64,000 bases of DNA from Kutzneria chonburiensis (lineage in GTDB: Bacteria > Actinomycetota > Actinomycetes > Mycobacteriales > Pseudonocardiaceae). Shown here one piece after another: positions 29,141 to 35,500 of the stretch. Position 1 is the stretch's first letter. Every line of letters starts with the position of its first letter. Under the pieces are notes generated by a model that was given only the letters and a program-made list of their open reading frames with translations, was not told where the DNA came from and made no database searches. Both the position numbers and the translations under genes were made by a program. Where the stretch lies: positions 8,939,501 to 9,003,500 of the forward strand of contig NZ_CP097263.1 of NCBI RefSeq assembly GCF_028622115.1, given 5' to 3'.

Positions 29141-30424
29141 TCACAGGAAGGTCGTCGGGATCGCCGGTTCGCCGTGCGAGAGCTTCAGGCCCTCCCACGG
29201 CACGCTGACCAGGGCCTGCCGCAGCCGTTCGCGGCTCTGCTCGATGGTCGGCAGGTCGGGCACGGGCTGTCCAGCCCGCACCAGGGGGATCTGGAGGTCG
29301 CGGTCGTGCTCGCCCAGGGCCGGCTTGTGGCCTTCGGTGTAGACGACCTCTTCGATGGCCGTGCCGGTCTCGCGGTAGCGGCGCAGCGCGCCCTTGCGGC
29401 CGCCGCGGGACTCCTTGTGCGAGCTGCGCTTGGCCACCGGCCGGCCCTCGACCTCCACCAGCTTGTAGACCATGCCCGCGGTCGGCGCGCCCGAGCCGGT
29501 CACCAGCGAGGTGCCGACGCCGTAGGCGTCCACCGGCTCGGCCCGCAGCGCCGCGATGGCGTACTCGTCGAGGTCGCCGGAGACGACGATCTTGGTGTTG
29601 CGGGCGCCGAGCGCGTCCAGCTGCTCACGGGCCTGCCGGGCCAGCGGGCCGACGTCGCCGGAGTCGATGCGGATCGCGCCCAGCTCCGGGCCGGCCACCT
29701 CCACCGCGGTCTGGATGCCCTTGGTGATGTCGTACGTGTCGACCAGCAGCGTCGTGCCCGCGCCCAGCTGCTCGACCTGCGCCTGGAACGCCGCCGCCTC
29801 GCTGTCGTGCAGCAGCGTGAAGGCGTGGGCCGAGGTGCCGGCGGTCGGGATGCCGTAGCGGCGGCCCGCCTCCAGGTTCGACGTGGCCGTGAAACCGGCC
29901 AGGTAGGAGACGCGGGCCGAGGCCACCGCCGCCTCCTCGTGGGTGCGGCGCGAGCCCATCTCGATCATGCGGCGGCCGTTGGCCGCGGTGACCATGCGGG
30001 CCGCCGCCGACGCGATCGCGCTGTCGTGGTTGAGGATCGACAGTGCCAGCGTCTCCAGCACCACGCCGGTCGCGAACGGCGCGCGCACGGTCAGGATCGG
30101 CGAGCCCGGGAAGTACAGCTCGCCCTCCGGGTAGCCGTCCACGTCGCCGGTGAACTCGTAGTCGGCGAGCCAGGCCAGCGTCCGCTCGTCCACGACATCG
30201 GCCGCCGCCAGCTGGTCCAGCTCGGCCCGGTCGAACCGGAACCGGGTGATCGCGTCCAGCAGCCGGGCGGTGCCGCCGACCACGCCGTAGCGGCGGCCGT
30301 CGGGCAGCCTGCGGGCGAAGACCTCGAACACGCATGGCCGGTCCGCGGTGTCGTCGCGCAGCGCGCTGGACAGCATCGTCAGCTCGTAGTGGTCGGTGAG
30401 CAGCGCGGTGCTCGTACTGGTCAT
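29141..30424 (-). CDS. pncB: Nicotinate phosphoribosyltransferase
   Basis: A 427-residue enzyme making nicotinate mononucleotide from nicotinate and PRPP with ATP. Conserved stretches are [15 protein letters not shown] at the N-terminus, [31 protein letters not shown] with the phosphorylated histidine, and [12 protein letters not shown]. Pairing with pncA reconstructs the salvage route. In M. tuberculosis pncB1 likewise lies divergent to clpS, as here (43 bases apart). ATG 30424 is preceded by TAGGCT at 8 bases. Confidence 0.95.
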
Positions 30425-30467: not shown

Positions 30468-30755
30468 ATGACCACGCCCGTCGAGCAGCACAAGCCGGAG
30501 GTGGAGTCGGTCGGCAGCGAGGACCACCCGTGGCTGACCGTCGTGTGGAACGACCCGGTCAACCTCATGTCCTACGTGACCTACGTGCTTCAGAAGATCT
30601 TCGGCTACAGCCGCGAGAAGGCCACCAAGCTGATGTTGGACGTGCATCACAAGGGTCGGGCGATCGTGTCATCGGGCAGCAAGGAGAAGGTGGAGACCGA
30701 CGTGGCGAAACTGCACGCCGCCGGCCTGTGGGCGACCATGCAGCAGGACTCGTAG
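30468..30755 (+). CDS. clpS: ClpS adaptor, canonical copy
   Basis: A 95-residue N-degron adaptor that hands proteins with bulky hydrophobic N-termini to the ClpC/ClpP protease. Pocket residues are conserved: WNDPVN (N28, D29), M34, V37, M56 in LMLDVHHKG, and H60, the counterpart of E. coli His66 that binds the substrate amino group. A 21-residue N-terminal extension precedes the fold, as needed for substrate delivery. Its TAG overlaps the GTG of the DUF2017 gene. This matches Rv1331 in position. Confidence 0.95.
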
Positions 30756-31312
30756 TGCGGGGTTGGCGACGGCGCGGCGAGCAGTTGGTCGCCGAGGTGG
30801 ACCGGCAGGAGGCGGCGATCCTGCGTGGGCTGGTCGGCCAGGTGCTGGACATGCTGGCCGCGCGGGAGCAGGACGCGCCCGACGACGAGCTGGCCGAGCT
30901 GACCGGGATCCGGGTCGGGCCCTCGACCGCGCCGGACGACCCGATCCTGTCCCGGCTGCTGCCCGACTTCCACCGGCTGGACGACGACCAGCCGTCGAAG
31001 GAGGACCTGGACTCGGCGGCCGCGCTGCGCAGTCTGCACGAGCCGGAGCTGCTGGAGTTCAAGACCGGCGTGGCGCAGATCGTGATGGACACCTGCCCGC
31101 CGGACGGCGGTCCGATCCTGCTGTCGGTGGAGCAGGCCGACGCCTGGCTGTCGGCGATCAACGACGTGCGGCTGGCCCTGGGCACGGCGTTGGACGTCAC
31201 CGAGGACATGCCGGACGAGCTGCCCGAGGACGATCCCCGGTCCTCGCACCTCGGCGTCTACCACTGGCTGACCTGGGTGCAGGAGAGCCTGGTCACCGCG
31301 GTGTCGTCGTGA
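30755..31312 (+). CDS. DUF2017 protein, partner of ClpS (copy 1)
   Basis: A 185-residue helical protein (Rv1332 counterpart). Landmarks are RQEAAILRGLVGQVLDML, LSRLLPDFHRLD, WLSAINDVRLALGTALDV and the terminal YHWLTWVQESLV. DUF2017 always follows clpS in actinobacteria but has no known function; constant pairing suggests a physical or regulatory link with ClpS. The start GTG shares one base with the clpS stop, and the stop overlaps the P1 peptidase start by 4 bases. Confidence 0.9.
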   Translation: MRGWRRRGEQLVAEVDRQEAAILRGLVGQVLDMLAAREQDAPDDELAELTGIRVGPSTAPDDPILSRLLPDFHRLDDDQPSKEDLDSAAALRSLHEPELLEFKTGVAQIVMDTCPPDGGPILLSVEQADAWLSAINDVRLALGTALDVTEDMPDELPEDDPRSSHLGVYHWLTWVQESLVTAVSS

Positions 31313-32406
31313 TCACCGACGTGCCCGGCGTGCTGGTCGGCCAGTACCAGCGGCTGGGCGACGGCTGGGCCACCGGCACCACCGTGGTGCTGACCCCGGA
31401 GGGCGCGGTGGCCGGCGTCGACCAGCGCGGCGGCGCGCCCGGCACGCGGGAGACCGACGTGCTGGAGCCGTCTCGGCTGGTGCAGGAGATTCACGGCGTG
31501 TGTCTGACCGGCGGCAGCGCGTACGGGTTGGCCGCGGCCGACGGCGTGATGCGCTGGCTGGCCGAGCGCAATCACGGTGTCAGCGTGGGGGAGTTGCCGC
31601 ATGAGGTCGTGCCGGTCGTGCCGTCGGCCGTGTTGTTCGACCTCAAGCTGAGCGACTGGGGCAACCGCCCCGACGCCTCCTTCGGCTACGCCGCGTGCGA
31701 GGCGGCGTCGGACGGTCCCGTCGAGCAGGGCTGCGTCGGCGCCGGAACCGGCGCTCGATGTGGGTCTTTGAAGGGTGGGATCGGCACCGCCAGCATGGTC
31801 GTCGACGGGCTCACGGTCGGCGCCATCGCCGCCGTGAACGCCATGGGTGAGGCCGTGAACCCCGACGGCCTGCCGTGGGCCCTCGACCACGAGATCGACG
31901 GCGAGTTCGGCGTGTCGCCCCCGGGCGCGCCGTCCGTGGAACTCCGGCCCAAGCGTTCCGCGTTGAACACCACGATCGGTGTGGTCGCCGTCGACGCCGT
32001 GCTGTCCAAGGCCGAGTGCCAGCGGATCGCCGCCGTCGCCCACGACGGCCTGGCCCGGGCCATCCGGCCCGCGCACGCCATGTACGACGGCGACACCATC
32101 TTCGCGCTGGCCACCGGCCGGCAGGAGCTGACGGGAGTGCGGGGCATGGCGCTGGACCGGGTGTGCGAGGCCGGCGCGCAGGTGTTCGCCCGGGCCATCG
32201 TGCACGGGATCCTCGCGGCGACCACGGTGGCCGGTGTGCCGGCGTACCGTGACGCATGGCCGGAGGCTTTGGGGGAAAGTGACGGACTGGCATGTCGCTG
32301 TGCACAACGACGAGATGAACGTGTTCCCGGTGGTGGTCGACGTGCTCAACCGAGTGGTCGGACTGAAGCTGGACGATGCGATCGCCGGCACGTGGCGGAT
32401 CCATGA
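31309..32406 (+). CDS. P1-family (DmpA-like) peptidase with an extended tail
   Basis: A 365-residue self-cleaving N-terminal-nucleophile hydrolase (Rv1333 counterpart). The processing site is GSLKGGIGTAS, with the Thr becoming the nucleophile, preceded by VGAGTGAR; VDQRGGAPGTRETD and LTGGSAYGLAAADGV are also family hallmarks. Members act as aminopeptidases or amidases. The natural end should be near VPAYRDAWPEALG, but this frame continues about 40 more residues of Arg-rich sequence, overlapping the second clpS-like gene by 128 bases. The original stop appears lost, presumably when the extra modules arose. Confidence 0.88.
   Translation: MITDVPGVLVGQYQRLGDGWATGTTVVLTPEGAVAGVDQRGGAPGTRETDVLEPSRLVQEIHGVCLTGGSAYGLAAADGVMRWLAERNHGVSVGELPHEVVPVVPSAVLFDLKLSDWGNRPDASFGYAACEAASDGPVEQGCVGAGTGARCGSLKGGIGTASMVVDGLTVGAIAAVNAMGEAVNPDGLPWALDHEIDGEFGVSPPGAPSVELRPKRSALNTTIGVVAVDAVLSKAECQRIAAVAHDGLARAIRPAHAMYDGDTIFALATGRQELTGVRGMALDRVCEAGAQVFARAIVHGILAATTVAGVPAYRDAWPEALGESDGLACRCAQRRDERVPGGGRRAQPSGRTEAGRCDRRHVADP
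32245..32250 (+). promoter_or_regulatory. Candidate promoter of the second clpS module
   Basis: TACCGT inside the P1 peptidase gene would start a transcript near 32257, giving a 22-base leader with the ribosome site GGGGGAAA before GTG 32279. It offers a way to express the extra pairs separately. Confidence 0.35.
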
Positions 32407-32512
32407 GCAGGGGTCGGCGCTGATCTCGTCGACCAGCCGCGACGCCGCGGAGGCGATGGTCGCGCGGCTGCACAGCTACGGCATCGACGCCTCGGTCGGG
32501 AGGTCCTCGTGA
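32279..32512 (+). CDS. Diverged ClpS-like protein (copy 2)
   Basis: A 77-residue ClpS fold lacking almost the whole N-terminal extension (only three residues precede the first strand). HNDEMN retains the Asn-Asp pair (N10, D11) and IHEQG retains the His (H42), but the hydrophobic pocket differs: the Met of canonical ClpS is F16, and the second Met is T38. GTG 32279 is preceded by GGGGGAAA. It overlaps the P1 peptidase tail and is coupled (GTGA) to its own DUF2017 partner. Likely an adaptor with altered specificity or a non-delivering competitor; this is inference. Confidence 0.82.
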   Translation: MTDWHVAVHNDEMNVFPVVVDVLNRVVGLKLDDAIAGTWRIHEQGSALISSTSRDAAEAMVARLHSYGIDASVGRSS

Positions 32513-32994
32513 CCGAGACGGACAATGAGGTCGCGCTCGACGGCGACTGGCTGGTGCTGTCGCTGTCGGCGCAGGCTGTGGCGGTCATCCGCCGGGCGGC
32601 CGGCGATCTGGCCGTGGCCATCGAGGACAAGCGGGCCAACGAAGCCTGGTGGAGCTTCCGGACACCGATGCACCTGTTCCCCGAGGCCTACGAGTCGCGT
32701 CGCGACCAGAAGGCGTACATCCAGCGGCATGAACTGGACATCAGGGCGGAACTGACCGCGGCCGCGCACCGGGTGATCGCGGCGCTGGACGCCGGACGGC
32801 CCATGCGCTACCCGGCGGCGCAGGCCGACGACCTGCTTCGAGTGTTCGGGTCCGCGCGTCTGCTGTACGTGGACCGAGACGCGCCGCCGAGCAGTGCAAC
32901 TCCGAAGGCCGCCGCCGCGTACCTGCTGAGCGCGATGCAGCACGAAATCGTGGTGACGTTGCGGCCGGAACTGGCGGGGGTGGGACCGCAGTGA
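32509..32994 (+). CDS. Diverged DUF2017 protein (copy 2)
   Basis: A 161-residue protein aligned to DUF2017 by AVAVIRRAAGDLAVAI, MHLFPEAYESR, LLRVFGSARLLYVDRD (compare WLSAINDVRLALG in copy 1) and YLLSAMQHEIVVTLRPEL. It begins with GTG overlapping the copy-2 clpS stop and ends overlapping the copy-3 clpS start. Sequence similarity to copy 1 is low, closer to copy 3, consistent with duplication of an already diverged pair. Confidence 0.78.
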   Translation: MTETDNEVALDGDWLVLSLSAQAVAVIRRAAGDLAVAIEDKRANEAWWSFRTPMHLFPEAYESRRDQKAYIQRHELDIRAELTAAAHRVIAALDAGRPMRYPAAQADDLLRVFGSARLLYVDRDAPPSSATPKAAAAYLLSAMQHEIVVTLRPELAGVGPQ

Positions 32995-33230
32995 GCGAAT
33001 TCCGAGTGGTCGCCTTCAACGACCTGCGCAGCGAGGACGCGGTGGTGGCCGACATCCTCAACCGGGTCTGCGGGCTGCCGCTGGCGGACGCGGTGGCGCT
33101 GACCAGACAGATCGAGGTGGACGGCAAGGCCACCGTCGGCCTGGCCGCGACGCGGGCCGACGCCGAGGTGATCGCCGCCCGGATGCTGGGCTTCGGGCTG
33201 CGGCCGGTGATCGAGAGGAACAGGGCATGA
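32991..33230 (+). CDS. Diverged ClpS-like protein (copy 3)
   Basis: A 79-residue ClpS fold with no N-terminal extension. AFNDLR keeps Asn-Asp (N10, D11), and DILNRVCGLPLADAV matches copy 2 (DVLNRVVGLKLDDAI), so copies 2 and 3 are sisters. However the pocket Met is D16 and the position of the amino-binding His is E42 (IEVDG), so canonical N-degron binding is unlikely. GTG 32991 overlaps the previous stop and its stop overlaps the next ATG. Confidence 0.8.
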   Translation: MSEFRVVAFNDLRSEDAVVADILNRVCGLPLADAVALTRQIEVDGKATVGLAATRADAEVIAARMLGFGLRPVIERNRA

Positions 33231-33745
33231 GCTGGTCGCACGGCTTCGACGTGGTCGTCGGCGAGAACCAGGTGCTGCTCAACCTGACCGAGCACACGGT
33301 GTCGGCGCTGCGTGAGGGCATCGGCACGCTGGCCCGCTACCTGGACGACATGCCGGCTCAGGGCGGCTTCAAGGACCGGCTGATGTTCCGCCGGGACCGC
33401 CTCGAGCTGCTGGACCGGCTGCTGCCGCCGGTCTCCGAGTACTCGCCGTCGGCCCAGGAGTTCCTGGCCCGCTGGGGCAACGACCTGCGGGTGGAGCTGC
33501 GCGACGCGGCCCGCCGGGTGCTGGCCTCCATCCCGGACGCCGGCCCGGTCAGCTATCCGCTGGTCAACGTGGACGACTGGATCCGGGTGCTCGGCCAGGC
33601 CCGGCTGGTGTGGGTGCCCCGCGGCACCTCAGGGGACACCCGGTCGGGTGATGCCCGGCTGCGCAACGCCGGACTGTTCGCCGAGCTCCAGGGTCAGCTG
33701 GTCCGGGCGCTGCGTCCGGAGCTGGCCGTCCAGCTGACCGGCTGA
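33227..33745 (+). CDS. Diverged DUF2017 protein (copy 3)
   Basis: A 172-residue protein of the same fold: TVSALREGIGTLARYL, LLDRLLPPVSEYS, DWIRVLGQARLVWVPRG and LFAELQGQLVRALRPEL. The paired motifs RLVWVPRG and ALRPEL recall copy 2 (RLLYVDRD, TLRPEL). It starts with an ATGA overlap with copy-3 clpS and ends 45 bases before mec. It closes the string of three adaptor/partner modules. Confidence 0.8.
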   Translation: MSWSHGFDVVVGENQVLLNLTEHTVSALREGIGTLARYLDDMPAQGGFKDRLMFRRDRLELLDRLLPPVSEYSPSAQEFLARWGNDLRVELRDAARRVLASIPDAGPVSYPLVNVDDWIRVLGQARLVWVPRGTSGDTRSGDARLRNAGLFAELQGQLVRALRPELAVQLTG

Positions 33746-33790: not shown

Positions 33791-34207
33791 GTGCTGGTGA
33801 TCCGCCGTGACCTGGTCGAGGCCATCGTCGAACACGCCCGCCGGGACCATCCCGACGAGGCGTGCGGGGTGGTCGCCGGCCCGTCCCCGGACCGGCCGGA
33901 GCGCTTCGTGCCGATGCTCAACGCCGCGCGCTCGCCCACCTTCTACGAGTTCGAGTCGGGCGACCTGCTGCGGCTGTACCGCGAGATGGACGGCAACGAC
34001 GAGGTGCCGGCGGTGGTCTACCACTCGCACACCGCGACCGAGGCCTACCCCTCGCGCACCGACGTGTCGTACGCGGGCGAGCCGGAGGCGCACTACGTGC
34101 TGGTGTCGACCCGGGAGCCGGACACCCATGAGTTCCGGTCCTACCGGATCGTCGACGGCGAGGTCACCGAGGAGCCGGTGACGATCGTCGAGTCGTACGG
34201 GGAATAA
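33791..34207 (+). CDS. mec: JAMM/Mov34 metallopeptidase (Mec+)
   Basis: A 138-residue zinc peptidase (Rv1334 counterpart). The JAMM motif is complete: a Glu in the HPDEACGVVAG region and HSHTATEAYPSRTD, which is His-X-His, seven residues, Ser, two residues, Asp. In the CysO pathway Mec+ releases cysteine from the CysO-cysteine adduct. The neighbouring cysO gene here encodes two residues after the C-terminal Gly-Gly, so this enzyme might also trim CysO. The gene lies 59 bases before cysO. Confidence 0.93.
   Translation: MLVIRRDLVEAIVEHARRDHPDEACGVVAGPSPDRPERFVPMLNAARSPTFYEFESGDLLRLYREMDGNDEVPAVVYHSHTATEAYPSRTDVSYAGEPEAHYVLVSTREPDTHEFRSYRIVDGEVTEEPVTIVESYGE

Positions 34208-34266: not shown

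Positions 34267-35500
<1,234 letters not shown>

Follow-up and report, generated by a model that had tools for sequence, protein, structure and literature searches.

An operon of the actinomycete Kutzneria chonburiensis (Pseudonocardiaceae) carries three pairs made up of a clpS or clpS-like gene and a gene of the DUF2017 family, and our comparison of this operon with those of related genomes gives good support, at the level of sequence, to the view that ClpS and DUF2017 behave as one unit. The stretch analysed, hereafter the window, comprises 64,000 nucleotides (positions 8,939,501 to 9,003,500 of contig NZ_CP097263.1, assembly GCF_028622115.1) of a genome of 10.4 Mb on a single contig, in which the genes are arranged in the order clpS–DUF2017–P1 peptidase–(clpS–DUF2017)x2–mec–cysO–cysM. 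A first, sequence-only reading of the window had proposed that the two proteins of a pair work together, and this was borne out by three observations: a DUF2017-like gene or its remnant adjoins 52 of the 53 extra ClpS loci that we collected, the trees of the two families are concordant, and both proteins are encoded in a single frame in three species. We propose that the pair would act as an adaptor of the ClpC protease made of two parts, in which the choice of the client would fall to DUF2017, a reading to which we assign a probability of about 0.5.

With a profile built from the extra ClpS proteins of Kutzneria (profile A1), at least two ClpS matches were found in 47 of 150 genomes of the family. 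The loci read comprise 35 extra pairs after the P1 peptidase gene, in 32 genomes, and 15 pairs elsewhere. The last three of the 47 genomes contain a pair (G012; such handles denote the genomes of our collection), a decayed pair (G007) and an unpaired marginal match (G115). The last of these, counted among the 47 genomes and the single unpaired locus of the 53, had an E value of 5.6e-4, no DUF2017 alongside, and was not seen by a separately built ClpS profile. The counts of 47 genomes and 53 loci were compiled by hand from profile tables, and they exclude the second ClpS match of G080 and the third of G093 (Pfam E up to 0.01, unseen with A1) as well as the matches from our search of the genus in which fusions occur.

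In the 50 main loci (35 at the P1 site and 15 elsewhere), the partner is the following gene in 49 cases and is fused to ClpS in one, and most of the ClpS and DUF2017 genes of a pair overlap or abut. Our first DUF2017 profile had been iterated on stop-to-stop frames, covering out-of-frame clpS and inflating the scores, and the test was therefore redone on trimmed genes. The resulting clean profile, built from eight extra DUF2017 proteins of Kutzneria, matched 48 of the 50 partners at E under 1e-3; nine of the 50 are from Kutzneria, and outside that genus the profile matched 39 of 41. As controls, 50 shuffled partners and 130 other genes of these loci were compared with it, all without a match, and it also matched the partner in G012 and in the decayed pair of G007, giving 50 partners by the clean profile, to which two broken ones detected by a mixed profile are added. 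The Pfam DUF2017 model matched 39 of the 50 partners at E up to 1e-3, with no other family listed, and in a smaller Pfam scan of 10 partners six scored above the cut-off, one scored below it and three gave no match.

The trees of the two partners also agree. Over 48 extra pairs, the pairwise distances of ClpS and DUF2017 were correlated with r 0.56, and none of 5000 permutations reached as high a value; after the distance of the canonical genes was removed, the partial r over 34 P1-site pairs was 0.44, again with 0 of 5000 permutations as high. The nearest neighbour was the same for both partners in 34 of the 48 pairs, and the groups alpha, gamma and alpha+beta, which are lineages of Kutzneria pairs, are common to the ClpS and the DUF2017 trees. 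These tree tests were made without the off-operon pairs of G119 and G137, in which DUF2017 is broken, without G007, G012 and G115, and without the canonical pair of G033, a genome that was also dropped from the 35 P1-site pairs of the partial correlation for want of a canonical partner.

The two proteins are also linked by natural fusions in another genus. In G165, ClpS and DUF2017 lie in a single frame of 250 amino acids (aa), with a ClpS half of 40.7 bits (cut-off 23) and a DUF2017 half that, scanned alone, scores 27.7 bits (cut-off 25). The same single frame is found in G561 (70% identity) and G575 (68%), so that the fusion occurs in three species of one genus; a match to it was obtained in 13 of 24 genomes of that genus, and in G013 and G149, which belong to the same genus, two separate genes occupy the same neighbourhood. 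Such fusions speak against the idea that DUF2017 is a client which its own ClpS hands over for degradation, and we infer that DUF2017 would be a working half of the adaptor rather than a substrate. In G577 (C23:329798-331270, read as L188 and L197), a fusion-like ClpS–DUF2017 extends over two frames and is directly followed by a separate ClpS and DUF2017, which makes it a tandem in a genus other than Kutzneria. Beside the pair of G149 lies a gene resembling cysteinyl-tRNA synthetase (L095:6906-8024), presumably MshC-like, a homologue of which is found nearby in G013 and G165.

The partnership is asymmetric, in that DUF2017 occurs without ClpS, and an extra ClpS without DUF2017 is represented by one marginal match. 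G084 has four DUF2017 matches and one ClpS match, and the window genome (G000) encodes a fourth DUF2017 without a ClpS at C1:6736892-6737404 on the minus strand (L031:4860-5432; 55.7 bits), next to genes that, from their sequence, we take to be mce-like. We also looked for a fixed third gene or client beside the off-operon pairs by calling the neighbouring genes with a home-made gene finder and clustering them, and by scanning 18 neighbouring or inserted genes (10 and 8), and no such gene emerged. Among the genes scanned were MOSC, Macro, F420 reductase, tRNA_SAD, class I tRNA-synthetase-like, ThiF and VIT1 members. Some broad families, for example short-chain dehydrogenases, turn up repeatedly in the 13-kb stretches of different genera, but without a constant position next to the pair.

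The genes of the window from the first clpS to mec are as follows.

30468..30755, + strand: clpS copy 1, canonical (Pfam ClpS E 2.3e-25, 88.6 bits; NCBIfam NF000668 152.5 bits)
30755..31312, + strand: DUF2017 copy 1, canonical, AosR-like (Pfam DUF2017 E 1.4e-54, 185.4 bits; NCBIfam AosR 227.9 bits)
31309..32406, + strand: P1 peptidase, family S58 (Pfam Peptidase_S58 E 9.2e-71)
32279..32512, + strand: clpS-like copy 2, extra, gamma lineage (Pfam ClpS E 1.4e-14, 54.0 bits)
32509..32994, + strand: DUF2017-like copy 2, extra, gamma lineage, no cysteine (Pfam DUF2017 E 2.6e-8, 34.7 bits)
32991..33230, + strand: clpS-like copy 3, extra, alpha lineage (Pfam ClpS E 5.3e-5, 23.4 bits)
33227..33745, + strand: DUF2017-like copy 3, extra, alpha lineage, no cysteine (Pfam DUF2017 E 2e-11, 44.9 bits)
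33791..34207, + strand: JAB peptidase (Pfam Prok-JAB E 1.9e-27), from the gene order presumably mec

From gene order and sequence we take the following open reading frames (ORFs) at 34267..34545 (+) and 34550..35500 (+) to be cysO (sulfur carrier) and cysM (cysteine synthase), respectively, and, from its sequence, the one at 29141..30424 (−), divergent from clpS copy 1, to be nicotinate phosphoribosyltransferase-like; this last ORF has the same position in the Kutzneria relatives read. The sequence-only reading had placed two extra pairs between the P1 peptidase and mec, and its gene order, coordinates and overlap lengths agree with what we found: four bases at each junction from clpS copy 2 to DUF2017 copy 3, one base in pair 1, and then a gap of 45 bases between DUF2017 copy 3 and mec. 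Its assignment of the products starting at 32279 and 32991 to ClpS and those at 32509 and 33227 to DUF2017 likewise holds, as all six genes of the three pairs score above the Pfam cut-offs (ClpS, PF02617, 23 bits; DUF2017, PF09438, 25 bits), clpS copy 3 just barely. The cut-off of the NCBIfam equivalog model for ClpS (NF000668, 86 bits), reached by copy 1, is missed by copy 2 (41.7 bits) and copy 3 (15.2 bits), so that both extra proteins rank as ClpS-like and not as ClpS equivalogs.

As had been noticed from the letters alone, copy 2 and copy 3 are more alike than either is to copy 1: in ClpS they share 28 of 77 aligned residues, against 24/77 (copy 2) and 15/77 (copy 3) with copy 1, and in DUF2017 51 of 157, against 37/149 and 37/157. 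In the alignment, the extra DUF2017 proteins are without the canonical ELTGI and MPDELPEDDP stretches. The third DUF2017 gene has homologues in Kutzneria sp. CA-103260 (83% identity) and Kutzneria sp. 744 (85%).

One junction of the window is unusual. The P1 peptidase frame runs to a stop at 32406, 128 bases inside clpS copy 2, although its homologous part ends near 32280, whereas in each of the five Kutzneria relatives that have an extra pair P1 stops with a 4-base overlap instead. The run of G at this junction is one base shorter in the window than in G001, G002 and G006, which may reflect a recent change or a sequencing slip, and the frame of clpS copy 2 itself is unaffected by the run-on.

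Within Kutzneria (seven genomes, the window genome and G001–G006), two extra pairs are present in G000, G001 and G002, one in G003, G005 and G006, and none in G004, always at the site between P1 and mec; among the loci read at the P1 site, two consecutive extra pairs occur only in these three genomes. The alpha lineage comprises copy 3 of G000, copy 3 of G002 and the pair of G006, the beta lineage copy 3 of G001, copy 2 of G002 and the pair of G003, and the gamma lineage copy 2 of G000 and of G001, with a separate further lineage in G005. Alpha and alpha+beta are strongly supported in both trees and gamma at 95/93 in the ClpS tree and 88/86 in the DUF2017 tree; beta is weak in the DUF2017 tree (80/62) and forms no group in the ClpS tree, where copy 2 of G002 falls outside. 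In the arrays gamma stands before alpha, gamma before beta and beta before alpha, an order that fits an ancestral array from which different members were lost. A simple triplication of the pair known from M. tuberculosis, as first proposed, is not supported: the extra pairs are divergent lineages, found singly at the P1 site in many genera and at other places in further genomes, and the window array represents a known block elaborated in one lineage, not a fresh triplication.

Across the class, a Pfam search at E up to 1e-3 found ClpS in 376 of 394 genomes and more than one ClpS only in G000 and G320 (2 of 394), a search that overlooks part of the divergent copies; within the family sample, the second copies that A1 detected in G028, G089, G092, G115 and G170 escaped Pfam. 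Both copies of G320, a draft 68% complete, are canonical by score. Some of the loci read are interrupted by other genes. A ThiF-family gene (L106:3980-5074) stands between P1 and the extra pair of G123, in an operon whose last part belongs to the CysO sulfur-carrier pathway, and the gap at this place in G096 and G063 is about as large as that insertion. The extra pair of G069 is preceded by a VIT1 gene and followed by an acetyltransferase gene, and in G033 an IS605 OrfB/TnpB-type gene (L126:1320-2537) splits the canonical clpS from its DUF2017.

The extra genes evolve fast. Between the same Kutzneria species they are about 3 to 28 times more diverged than the canonical ones, and the ratio of nonsynonymous to synonymous change (dN/dS), estimated by a counting method on short genes, was 0.22-1.14 for extra ClpS and 0.38-0.93 for extra DUF2017 (7 comparisons), compared with 0.04-0.19 and 0.13-0.20 for canonical ClpS and DUF2017 (10 comparisons). 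These ratios would be expected if the extra copies were drifting duplicates with little function, and the variable copy number, the decayed pair of G007 and the frame-broken DUF2017 genes of G119 and G137 are in line with such drift. On the other hand, six Kutzneria genomes contain nine extra pairs, and in every one of these both frames are open (two of the DUF2017 starts being candidates) and the start-stop overlaps are preserved, which argues against drift; in a rough neutral simulation with 0.3 changes per site, the pair remained free of stops in about 11% (alpha) or 5% (gamma) of the runs. Drift with little function appears improbable to us.

The residues equivalent to N34, D35 and H66 of ClpS hold the N-terminus of the substrate (numbering of E. 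coli, taken from the alignment range). N/D34, D35 and H66 are retained together in all 36 canonical ClpS proteins and in 20 of 50 extra ones; in the window, copies 1 and 2 have all three and copy 3 has Glu for H66. D35, the A81–E82 pair and one glycine are invariant in all 50 extra ClpS proteins. According to the excerpts available of PMC6274998, ClpS of M. tuberculosis binds ClpC1, and D35 is predicted by molecular dynamics to contact it. The view of the sequence-only reading that the cell uses several adaptor systems stays an inference, with copy 3 lacking a key residue for N-degron binding. All ClpS copies would probably have a single ClpC in common: of three long frames with a Clp N-domain in the window genome, judged by eye, one reads as ClpC (C1:7773093) and two as ClpB-like. 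Five short frames (219-253 aa; G000 C1 near 4884577, 5540536, 7022023, 8004658 and 9704756) also have Clp N-domain matches and no room for ATPase modules, and of the three read, one seems to carry a helix-turn-helix part.

A pocket that decays while some residues persist in every extra copy could also be explained if the extra pairs were anti-adaptors or decoys that occupy ClpC, or small proteins with a ClpC N-domain, and block other ClpS traffic or antibiotics that bind this domain. The five short frames are like ClpC2, which in the text available of PMC10030653 protects mycobacteria against cyclomarin A, and the excerpts of PMC6274998 mention that cyanobacterial ClpS2 blocks casein degradation. 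A decoy, however, needs no DUF2017 partner and would leave the partnering in 52 of 53 loci unexplained, and we regard this explanation as quite unlikely.

The canonical DUF2017 of the window, a point absent from the sequence-only reading, resembles mycobacterial AosR: it matches the NCBI model NF051854, named AosR, oxidative-stress transcription regulator, over nearly its full length (E 9.7e-68), its score lying below the equivalog cut-off of 260 bits. The extra copies 2 and 3 gave no match to this model. AosR is said to possess a redox-active cysteine pair; of the window DUF2017 proteins, copy 1 has a single cysteine and the two extra copies lack cysteine, so that no such pair is present, and in the family cysteine is absent from 18 of 35 canonical DUF2017 proteins and from 15 of 49 extra ones. 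The resemblance raises the possibility that DUF2017 proteins are transcription regulators of the AosR type, whose dedicated ClpS sets the life-time or activity of its own regulator via ClpC, the extra pairs providing, upstream of mec–cysO–cysM, additional regulators for redox or sulfur. In M. tuberculosis these three genes are called SigH/AosR-activated (PMC11439070, as far as its excerpts go), and in 29 of the 32 genomes with an extra pair after P1 the pair lies between P1 and mec, no mec being present within the stretch read of the other three (G009, G078 and G033). Against this stand the sub-threshold score and the lack of a match in the extra copies, the unconserved cysteines, the fifteen extra pairs away from the cysteine genes, and the fusions, in which the adaptor would itself belong to its substrate. 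We consider such a regulatory role of the pairs less probable than the two-part adaptor.

The two-part adaptor that we favour would work as follows. Each clpS–DUF2017 pair would encode the two halves of one adaptor, of which the ClpS half would bind the ClpC of the cell at its N-domain, whereas the client would be selected or carried by the DUF2017 half. Destabilising N-terminal residues would then no longer have to be recognised, which could account for the decay of the ClpS pocket in many extra copies. The canonical unit, encoded next to the cysteine genes mec–cysO–cysM, would consist of ClpS and the AosR-like DUF2017, and the extra pairs would be divergent, fast-evolving versions, presumably for other clients, added to the same operon or, in other genera, elsewhere. 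Of this, the unit itself is well supported, and delivery to ClpC is presumed. More tentatively, and with less confidence than in the adaptor itself, DUF2017/AosR proteins might be general co-adaptors of ClpS in Actinobacteria: the effect of AosR on the cysteine genes would then be exerted via ClpC-dependent proteolysis, and the Pseudonocardiaceae would have evolved fast-changing ClpS–DUF2017 modules, some of them fused, each delivering a different client without N-degrons.

Several points weigh against the two-part adaptor. The DUF2017 halves of the fusions in G561 (21.7 bits) and G575 (19.6 bits) are under the Pfam cut-off, 11 of the 50 extra partners go unmatched by Pfam DUF2017 at E up to 1e-3, and a profile built from the canonical proteins of the family matches just 3 of the 50; by these profiles the extra DUF2017 is a divergent branch, far from the canonical one. 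The off-operon partners in G119 and G137, being broken in frame, are detected by the mixed profile only. The description of AosR as a regulator of transcription is not what one would expect of a protein that selects clients, and a dN/dS of up to 1.14 in the extra pairs also fits relaxed constraint. Lastly, D35 is also a residue of the pocket, and its conservation cannot separate docking from N-degron binding.

A PADLOC-DB scan of the six proteins at E up to 1 gave no match to known anti-phage defence, and a sequence search for a solved structure of DUF2017 gave no convincing match. In the limited collection of literature that we searched, there was no paper with DUF2017, none joining ClpS and the Pseudonocardiaceae, and no description of such arrays. 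Within that collection, what is new is the strength of the link between ClpS and DUF2017, that is, the near-obligate partnering, the co-duplication and the natural fusion. ClpS is usually seen as an adaptor that acts alone, and AosR as a transcription factor whose gene happens to lie beside it; our findings connect them and offer an explanation, open to testing, of why this gene neighbourhood is conserved in Actinobacteria. For structural work the fusion proteins offer constructs that nature has already made, and the ClpS domains with a decayed pocket may deliver clients without an N-degron.

The window shares with the canonical actinobacterial block clpS–DUF2017 (aosR)–P1–mec–cysO–cysM the order of its genes and contains a complete canonical copy of it, but adds two divergent clpS–DUF2017 pairs between P1 and mec. 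To AosR (NF051854) the likeness extends over nearly the full length of the canonical DUF2017, while the score falls short (227.9 versus 260 bits) and the extra copies are unmatched. Cyanobacteria and Leptospira, with ClpS1 and ClpS2, likewise have more than one ClpS per cell, with differing properties, and the excerpts available of these papers (PMC7966870, PMC6274998, PMC12493166) describe no DUF2017 partner for them, unlike the pairs of the window. The precedent for the arrangement that we propose is the plastid ClpS1–ClpF system, in which, according to the text available of PMC7966870, ClpS and a second adaptor bring a client to ClpC; ClpF has uvrB/C and YccV domains, whereas the partner in the window has DUF2017.

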